From contig NZ_JDTH01000002.1 of the NCBI RefSeq assembly GCF_000710615.1, positions 1,604,082 to 1,668,081 on the forward strand: a DNA stretch of 64,000 nucleotides. The letters are read 5' to 3'. The translations under genes and the position numbers were made by a program. Shown here one piece after another: positions 23,965 to 25,830 of this stretch. Source of the stretch: Haladaptatus cibarius D43. Its GTDB lineage: Archaea > Halobacteriota > Halobacteria > Halobacteriales > Haladaptataceae. Each line of letters opens with the position of its first letter. The first letter of the stretch is position 1. The notes under the pieces were generated by a model. That model worked only from the letters and a program-made list of their open reading frames with translations. It had not been told where the DNA came from and ran no database searches.

Positions 23965-24978
23965 ATGACAAACCCCGTGAATTCGGAACACGACGAGAGC
24001 CTCGAACGCGAGTTAGCCGCCAACTACCAGTGCTACAGCCTCACCGGAAGTCATCACGAAATCGGCGTCGAGACAGCCAAACGAAGCGAGTCTGTCATCG
24101 AATCGGGAACGAAATTGACTGACGAAGCGCGCGAGGTGGCCGAAGAATCCAGAGAAATCACCGAATCCGTGTTTCCGGAAGCGGTCGAAGAATTTCGAGG
24201 CTACGCCGACGCCCTCGATTTGACCGACGACGAGTGGTTGTGGCAGTTCGCGCCGGGTGTGCAGGGTGGATGCAGTGCGGTTGCAGTAGAAACGGAGGAT
24301 GGCTTCATCATCGGACGAAACTACGATTTCTTCTACTTCGAGTCTCGACGCCACTTGATTCATACGAATCCGGACGATGGCTTTGCCCACGTCGGAACCC
24401 ACGAGGGACTCATCGGCGGGCGGTTCGACGGCCTGAACGAAGCAGGACTGTTCGTGGAGTTCAATGGTGCTGGCGAACCCGACGATTCCCGTGTCGGAAT
24501 GCCGTTCCACCTCGTGGTTCGCTATCTGCTGGAGAACTGTGAAACCGCGACGGAGGCCCGCGATACCTTGTGCGACCTGCCACTGCGCGAATCGAAAAGC
24601 TACCTGCTCGCGGACGAAAGTTCGGCGTTCGTCGTGGAAGCACACCCAGAAGAAACTGCGGTCAGAGAACCAGAAGACGGCGTCCTCGTCGCTACGAATC
24701 ACTTCGTCCATCCCGCAATGCAGGAGTACGAACCGGCGTGGGACAACTCCGTCCGGCGACGGGAGACGTTGCGAGGGTTGGCCGAAATTTCAGAACCGAC
24801 TGCGAAGGACGTACAAACCCGTCTCCGCGACCACGAGGCACCGGTTTGTGGCCACGAAGACGGACTCGCAACGTTTTGGTCGTGTATCGCCGACCCTGCG
24901 GCGGGACGCGTTTCCTATGCACTCGGCGCGCCGTGTCGAAACGAATACGTCTGGACGATTTCCCCCGGAGAAGAGTGA
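23965..24978 (+). CDS. C45 autoproteolytic acyltransferase/hydrolase
   Basis: A 337-residue N-terminal-nucleophile hydrolase of the acyl-CoA:6-aminopenicillanate acyltransferase (C45) type. The predicted nucleophile is Cys103 in GVQGGCSAVAVETEDG, exposed by self-cleavage before the Cys. GRNYDFFYFESRRHL, GTHEGLIGGRFDGLNEAGLF and LVATNHFVHPAM match the family's core strands. The pro-region is residues 1-102. No signal peptide is present, so it is cytoplasmic. Substrates of archaeal members are unknown; amide or thioester acyl groups are likely. Confidence 0.85.
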   Translation: MTNPVNSEHDESLERELAANYQCYSLTGSHHEIGVETAKRSESVIESGTKLTDEAREVAEESREITESVFPEAVEEFRGYADALDLTDDEWLWQFAPGVQGGCSAVAVETEDGFIIGRNYDFFYFESRRHLIHTNPDDGFAHVGTHEGLIGGRFDGLNEAGLFVEFNGAGEPDDSRVGMPFHLVVRYLLENCETATEARDTLCDLPLRESKSYLLADESSAFVVEAHPEETAVREPEDGVLVATNHFVHPAMQEYEPAWDNSVRRRETLRGLAEISEPTAKDVQTRLRDHEAPVCGHEDGLATFWSCIADPAAGRVSYALGAPCRNEYVWTISPGEE

Positions 24979-25119
24979 GTGCGGAGGAACTCCCAAAACG
25001 AGGGTCGCATCGTCGAACGCGATTCCAAACTGGTTTGAGTTTCCATACTAGTTTATTGATTTATTATTTTTCTCTTCGAAAAAATATATTGCACTCTGTG
25101 CGCGTGGAATAAATGCACC

Positions 25120-25830
25120 ATGCCATCCAGACGTGACATACTCAAGAAAGTCAGTACAGCAGGAGCGACAGCAATCACGGTGACGGGACTGTCCGGGTCT
25201 GCATCCGCCGCACCCGGTTCCATTCCGTCGCATTATCTCGATCAGTATCAGGCGACCGGTGCCAACTACGGTATCGACTGGACGTACCTCGCGGGCGTCG
25301 GCTGGATAGAAACCCAGCACGGCCAGTACGAGCCCGGTTGCGACGAGTCGTCGGCGGGCGCACGTGGTCCGATGCAGTTCATGCCCGCGACGTGGGACGC
25401 CTACGGCGTTGACGGTAATGGCGACGGCTATGCGAATATCTGCGACTATCAGGACGCGATTCCAGCCGCCGCAAACTACCTGACGGCCTCTGGCGCGCCG
25501 GAGAACTGGGACGACGCGCTGTACGCCTACAACCACAGTTGGAGCTACGTCAACGACGTGAAAGACACCGCCGCCTACTACCGCAACCAGTACGGTGGAG
25601 GTGGCGGTGGTGGGTTTGCCGACGGCGACCGAATTACGCCGACTGCCAACCTGAACACCCGTGAACAGCCCGGAACCGGCCAGCCAATCGTCGCCACGAT
25701 TTCGCCCGGCGAAGTCGGCGAAATCATGAACGGCCCGACCACGAAGGGCGGCTACACGTGGTGGGGCGTCCACTGGCTCGACCGGAACGTGTGGGGTTGG
25801 TCGGTCGAGCAGTACCTCACCGACGCATAG
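25120..25830 (+). CDS. Tat-secreted lytic transglycosylase-like protein with SH3b domain
   Basis: A 236-residue secreted protein. The Tat signal is MPSRRDILKKVSTAG with an AXA site at ASA-AP (about 30). The lysozyme-like domain (about 35-150) carries the catalytic Glu64 in AGVGWIETQHG, GARGPMQFMPATWDAYGV, DGNGDGYANICDYQDAIPA and AYNHSWSYV, which are the MltB/SLT motifs in order. A Gly linker leads to a bacterial-type SH3 domain (about 168-236; ANLNTREQPGTGQPI, WWGVHWLDRNVWGW). Bacterial versions cleave the MurNAc-GlcNAc bond of peptidoglycan, which haloarchaea lack, so the target is probably outside the cell. The upstream gap is AT-rich with several TATA candidates. Confidence 0.87.
   Translation: MPSRRDILKKVSTAGATAITVTGLSGSASAAPGSIPSHYLDQYQATGANYGIDWTYLAGVGWIETQHGQYEPGCDESSAGARGPMQFMPATWDAYGVDGNGDGYANICDYQDAIPAAANYLTASGAPENWDDALYAYNHSWSYVNDVKDTAAYYRNQYGGGGGGGFADGDRITPTANLNTREQPGTGQPIVATISPGEVGEIMNGPTTKGGYTWWGVHWLDRNVWGWSVEQYLTDA

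Follow-up and report, generated by a model that had tools for sequence, protein, structure and literature searches.

A salt-loving archaeon without peptidoglycan exports a predicted peptidoglycan-cutting enzyme: such archaea may eat bacterial cell walls

Introduction

Why would an archaeon that has no peptidoglycan export an enzyme predicted to cut it? The question is raised by one gene of Haladaptatus cibarius D43 within a 64,000-nucleotide stretch of its genome (the window, to which positions given below without a contig or locus name refer). The gene was originally read, from the letters alone, as encoding an exported lytic transglycosylase with a bacterial SH3 domain, which could act on bacterial walls for competition or nutrition or have been retargeted to an archaeal glycan. 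Archaeal enzymes of this general kind have already been described: Strock et al. reported modular peptidoglycan hydrolases in archaea, showed bacterial killing for two of them and raised the question of whether bacteria are food to archaea or rivals; they also observed that Opp-MppA homologues were more frequent (Strock et al., 2025; PMC12352652). With such hydrolases in print since 2025, the SLT-SH3b protein of H. cibarius is less of a surprise than the original prediction held it to be.

A conserved gene for an exported protein

The SLT-SH3b protein, a predicted secreted lytic transglycosylase of 236 aa with an ATG start, is encoded at 25120..25830 (+), a call that rests on the open reading frame and its orthologues. 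About 30 nt 5′ of the ATG there is a BRE/TATA-like sequence, CGAAAAAATATATT (25077..25090, +), which would give the gene its own, nearly leaderless transcript; the element was picked out by eye and there are no transcript data. The protein begins with a Tat signal peptide (SRRDILKK ... ASAA; 25120..25212, +), which had been called clear and does pass the TIGR01409 Tat model (17.4 bits against a cut-off of 16.7). Because this signal has no lipobox Cys, the mature protein is predicted to be released, probably, rather than lipid-anchored. It consists of an SLT (GH23-type) catalytic domain (residues 33-158; 25216..25593, +), a glycine-rich linker that is a low-confidence loop in the structural model (25594..25614, +), and an SH3b module (residues 166-236; 25615..25827, +).

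Orthologues with 77-96% identity occur in seven other genomes of the genus and four of a sister genus, so by sequence comparison the observation is confirmed: the gene is conserved and is no product of chance. The closest named relative, from Haladaptatus litoreus, is 96% identical, in keeping with the haloarchaeal setting that had been assumed, and the codon pattern does resemble that of the neighbours (GC3 0.75 versus 0.66-0.77). In total the SLT gene was found in 8/9 Haladaptatus genomes, the four sister-genus genomes, and 18/392 Halobacteriales genomes overall. Its site is constant in the family, with gatB on one side, a MATE gene on the other and topA close by. The gene directly upstream in H. 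cibarius (23965-24978) belongs to the C45 family (penicillin acyltransferase-like); it was considered as a functional partner and set aside, as it adjoins SLT only in this strain and in one other genome (G004).

The haloarchaeal SLT sequences form one clade (support 100/99) nested among sequences from Actinomycetota and Bacillota, and the tree resolves no donor branch. The bacterial relatives are mainly Actinomycetota, about 50-56% identical over the SLT domain, but the bacterial sample was drawn mainly with one peptide pattern (GPMQFMP) and is biased accordingly. The phylogeny fits a single acquisition, after which the gene spread among haloarchaea or was lost from them, and, together with the common gene neighbourhood and the haloarchaeal composition, it bears out the suggestion that any transfer was not recent. 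A viral origin is without support, although not excluded: no viral relatives were found in IMG/VR by peptide patterns, and there was one short match to a phage record. The PHROGs matches of the protein are virion endolysins, which were taken to reflect the SLT fold and not as evidence of phage origin.

The catalytic domain

The motifs had been described as MltB/SLT, and of the two family labels the SLT one holds. Pfam SLT_2 (PF13406; 47.3 bits, cut-off 24.3) and Pfam SLT (PF01464; 29.9 bits, cut-off 21.3) are both matched above their cut-offs, but the MltB equivalog TIGR02282 is not met (37.5 bits against an NCBIfam cut-off of 281.4), a score so far under the cut-off that the protein is better described as an SLT-fold enzyme and not as an MltB orthologue. 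The four expected motifs are all intact and in order: GWIETQHG at residue 61 (which places the Glu at 64), GPMQFMPATW at 83, DGNGDGYAN at 98 and AYN at 136. In an alignment of 70 sequences (17 haloarchaeal and 53 bacterial rows), Glu64 (codon at 25309..25311, +) and 19 other core positions are invariant in every row, and the core residues are the same as in the bacterial enzymes. Two features set the haloarchaeal rows apart: Cys74 (25339..25341, +) and Cys108 (25441..25443, +) are present in 17/17 haloarchaeal rows and 0/53 bacterial rows, and the haloarchaeal SLT domain is richer in acidic residues (14.0% versus 8.3% in bacterial domains). A Cys74-Cys108 disulfide is possible, by inference, and the Cys pair and acid-rich composition, as far as an alignment can tell, fit a long-resident, salt-adapted, extracellular enzyme.

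An AlphaFold2 model built on the same 70 sequences reached a pLDDT of 86.9 (a model from only 12 close orthologues, at 31.6, was useless and was discarded). Its SLT part matches MltF (4oxv; Z 16.1, 117 residues, 2.2 Å) and Slt35 (1d0k; Z 14.7, 128 residues, 2.2 Å, 30% identity); matches at Z about 12.3-12.9 to a GH23 chitinase (Ralstonia 3w6e, Z 12.9) and goose lysozyme are weaker. With these matches and the invariant Glu64, the protein qualifies as a lysozyme-like fold with a catalytic Glu.

The SH3b tail and its relatives

The second domain had been called SH3b, and Pfam does not support the call: its SH3 families (PF08239 and relatives) gave no match to the SLT-SH3b protein at E 0.1. What does support it is that Amidase_2, M23 and glucosaminidase proteins carry modules 76-92% identical to it, and that Foldseek aligns the modelled tail with SH3 domains (TMt about 0.7-0.8, E about 0.007). 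The SH3b of the M23 paralogue is also under the SH3_3 cut-off (17.2 versus 27 bits), and more distant haloarchaeal copies exceed the PF08239 cut-off. On this evidence from paralogues and modelling, the tail is a real SH3b that Pfam alone cannot call.

In its tight relatives the module is joined to Amidase_2, M23, glucosaminidase and Hydrolase_2-like heads (the last assigned by eye), most with a Tat-type N-terminus. It is found too on GH18, S15 and other heads, so it is not exclusive to murein enzymes. Among the more elaborate layouts are two GH18 chitinase-like proteins with SH3b repeats (L026 25-1701 and L259 5139-6824, the latter within an AnmK cluster) and two 850-aa proteins (L106 14266-16818 and L107 5699-8251) in which a hydrolase-like N-terminal region of no assigned family is combined with four SH3b and an Amidase_2 domain.

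H. cibarius itself encodes three further Tat proteins with SH3b: an M23 protein (C2:533292), an Amidase_2 protein (C1:437568) and a second Amidase_2 protein whose SH3b is more distant (C1:331173). Its relatives add a glucosaminidase with SH3b. In Halocatena the SLT and SH3b-M23 genes adjoin (with an SH3b-amidase gene there too in G282), and in G352 SLT, SH3b and M23 are fused in a single 397-aa protein (L109 5503-6696), which probably arose, by inference, through recombination between the SH3b copies of neighbouring SLT and M23 genes. In one genome that lacks SLT (G007), the frames for SH3b-amidase, AnmK and NamZ (L035 5678-6902 and L254) are all split, through either decay or assembly errors.

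The SH3b copies within a genome are often nearer each other than the orthology of their heads predicts. In G006, G002 and G380 the SH3b of the SLT and M23 genes share identical tracts (159, 140 and 128 bp, respectively) with unrelated DNA on their flanks, and in G006 and G002 the two genes are ~120 kb apart. Constraining the SLT-type copies to one clade was rejected (p-AU 2e-61). Identity at four-fold sites between same-genome SH3b on different heads averaged 0.66, versus 0.57 +/- 0.019 when labels were permuted within genus and head, a value reached in 0/2000 replicates. Homogenisation is weaker in H. cibarius, where the longest identical SLT-amidase run is 53 bp. The simplest reading of these patterns is gene conversion.

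A predicted murein-catabolic cluster

Support for the nutritional branch of the original prediction comes specifically from a second locus. The SLT gene is on contig C2; on contig C11 (L248, with L275 upstream) H. cibarius has an Opp-type importer whose binding protein is a Tat lipoprotein, together with SDR, GNAT, AnmK, a HAD phosphatase, a beta-lactamase-fold enzyme, a 391-aa protein that belongs to no recognised family, NamZ, NagZ, a creatininase-family protein and a secreted GH18 protein. AnmK (458.7 bits, cut-off 387) and NagZ (238.7, cut-off 207) both pass their thresholds, NamZ_N scores 267 and NamZ_C 158 bits, and the beta-lactamase-fold enzyme and SBP_bac_5 were also matched. In established enzymology NagZ and AnmK process the product of lytic transglycosylases, and NamZ that of glucosaminidases. 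If the joint presence of NagZ, AnmK and NamZ is taken as the criterion for a murein-catabolic pathway, H. cibarius meets it, and that the cluster encodes such a pathway is plausible from its gene content.

AnmK is present in 9/9 Haladaptatus genomes. The cluster is nearly complete in 14 genomes other than that of H. cibarius and partial in about seven more, with conserved gene order, and AnmK and NamZ occur in the same genomes (25/25; plasmid copies of haloarchaeal NamZ carry the NCBI label 'DUF1343'). AnmK co-occurs with SH3b proteins in 19 genomes versus 3.8 expected (p 2e-12), and in 10 versus 2.1 with Haladaptatus left out (p 4e-6); these p-values carry no correction for common descent, and some proteins in the SH3b set have non-murein heads. 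In relatives, secreted Amidase_2 genes lie within the cluster at three loci (L260-L262) and adjoin it at another (L272), and at L257 a glucosaminidase-SH3b gene is ~2.5 kb from NagZ.

No MurQ etherase was found over the cut-off, only weak matches below it, mostly to frames of ~600 aa. The family of the 391-aa protein is a candidate for this missing step on MurNAc: its members, aligned from 16 genomes, share 43-94% identity, and many of their Cys, His and Trp are invariant. A profile search with the family against the PDB gave weak matches only. The H. cibarius member (L248 13618-14793) has no Pfam or NCBIfam match, and the family is usually near NamZ. On the upstream side of the importer (L275 8115-14566) are genes for a PIG-L deacetylase, a SelA/DgaE-like PLP enzyme, GATase-like and enolase-superfamily proteins and glucose dehydrogenase, some types of which recur near AnmK in other genomes; the group looks like oxidative amino-sugar breakdown. 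Also nearby is a gene (L275 4024-7440) for a 1138-aa protein with a Tat-like N-terminus and NAGPA phosphodiester glycosidase and metallophosphatase domains.

Murein as the probable target, and as possible food or battleground

That the SLT-SH3b protein acts on bacterial murein is very probable, although the activity is inferred from sequence and fold. Action on bacterial walls, as originally proposed, is strongly supported by the intact fold and Glu and by three other murein-hydrolase chemistries that carry the same SH3b. A hydrolase of chitin or another GlcNAc polymer might be considered, given that the GH23 fold includes chitinases (the Ralstonia enzyme among the model's matches), that SH3b is found on GH18 proteins and that Haladaptatus has GH18 chitinase-like genes; we think this quite unlikely, with MltF and Slt35 matching better, the nearest sequence relatives being actinobacterial SLT proteins, and the closest SH3b modules sitting on amidase, M23 and glucosaminidase proteins, of which the amidases and peptidases would be of no use on chitin. 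An inactive fold kept for binding only is harder still to credit: nothing in the sequence was found to support it, and it is at odds with the invariant core and the close identity of the orthologues. Haloarchaea have glycosylated S-layers and exopolysaccharides, and an enzyme retargeted to an archaeal surface glycan, or to the envelope of the cell that makes it, could in principle act on these. Beyond this general knowledge no direct sequence evidence for retargeting was found, and of all the readings it has the slimmest chance: several unrelated murein-specific heads sharing the module would have had to shift together, the SLT core residues are unchanged from those of bacterial enzymes, and the gene is missing from most Halobacteriales, which argues against a general envelope function.

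If murein is the target, the harder question is what its cutting is for. The set could be secreted mainly to kill competing bacteria, with any uptake of fragments incidental: Halalkalibacterium halodurans is killed by two modular hydrolases from haloarchaea (PMC12352652), and the patchy distribution of SLT, with one copy on a plasmid of Halocatena salina, fits arms-race genes. We regard this as possible but doubtful as the main role, since killing alone does not explain the NagZ/AnmK/NamZ/importer cluster or the amidase genes within it, and SLT in the family sits among housekeeping genes in a stable, not mobile, neighbourhood. We prefer murein scavenging, whether or not it involves killing, to a purely weapon role, and give the full account, in which enzyme set and cluster together serve scavenging with nutrition as the main benefit, a probability of roughly 0.6.

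Under murein scavenging, the SH3b tail would hold the protein on bacterial peptidoglycan (binding is inferred) while the SLT domain would cut the MurNAc-GlcNAc bond to leave GlcNAc-1,6-anhydroMurNAc ends, working with the secreted amidase, the M23 endopeptidase and, in relatives, the glucosaminidase. From known enzymology, amidase and M23 would free peptides for Opp uptake and glucosaminidase would leave MurNAc-GlcNAc for NamZ. Soluble muropeptides would then enter through the Opp-type transporter and be broken down inside the cell by NagZ, AnmK, NamZ and associated enzymes, both uptake and catabolism being inferences, as is the benefit to nutrition. One way to reach this food may be to lyse live bacteria. 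Several points count against the account: the lack of MurQ over the cut-off leaves the fate of MurNAc-6-phosphate open; the nearest solved relative of AnmK by sequence is levoglucosan kinase, so its substrate is uncertain; in H. cibarius SLT and cluster are on different contigs, and six SLT genomes have no AnmK match (G013, G026, G326, G338, G352, G389); no expression, activity or growth data stand behind it; and published relatives kill bacteria, which also fits a weapon (PMC12352652). The boldest version is that some haloarchaea grow on peptidoglycan by means of a four-chemistry hydrolase set with gene-converted SH3b, an archaeal recycling pathway and an unknown etherase (possibly the 391-aa family or the nearby amino-sugar genes); we would give it even odds.

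What is new here is AnmK in all nine Haladaptatus genomes, clustered in H. cibarius with NagZ, NamZ and an oligopeptide importer. A search for work on archaeal AnmK, NamZ or murein use, from which subscription literature was mostly excluded, found nothing beyond PMC12352652, and the main text of that paper does not mention NagZ, AnmK or MurQ. With cluster and hydrolases co-occurring, the rivals-or-food question left open in 2025 becomes directly testable in cultivable Haladaptatus. If the account is true, archaea in brines have an extra route for turnover of bacterial biomass, and the SH3b is a case of a wall-binding module kept common to unrelated enzymes through gene conversion.

Comparison with known systems

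The closest published likeness is to Woldo and Danwoldo, which share Tat export, a catalytic head with a wall-binding module, and halophilic archaeal hosts; the wider class, too, sometimes has more than one member per genome and shuffled modules (Strock et al., 2025; PMC12352652). Those two proteins join M23 or glucosaminidase to PG_binding_1, whereas the H. cibarius protein joins SLT to an SH3b below the cut-off. It has the export signal and the Pfam catalytic domain of that class and not the Pfam wall-binding domain; its layout is nevertheless theirs, and it would work like one of them. Strock et al. required a Pfam catalytic and a Pfam wall-binding domain, so their filter, as described in the accessible text, would probably have missed it, an inference from the SH3b score.

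The closest bacterial sequences, at about 50-56% identity, are Actinomycetota SLT proteins (Rubrobacter, Actinomadura, Nonomuraea), which differ in domain layout; none of the bacterial relatives examined has this SH3b. MltB/Slt35, Slt70 and MltF have the same fold and catalytic Glu, but the haloarchaeal protein is a short single domain with SH3b, two lineage-specific Cys and an acid-rich composition.

For the catabolic side the comparison is with Bacillus subtilis, whose murein-recycling genes are nagZ, amiE, namZ and murQRP, with a PTS transporter. As there, NagZ and NamZ adjoin in haloarchaea and an amidase is close by. The haloarchaeal cluster differs in having AnmK and no MurQ over the cut-off, extra genes that include the unassigned 391-aa family, and, where B. 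subtilis has its PTS transporter, an Opp-type ABC importer.
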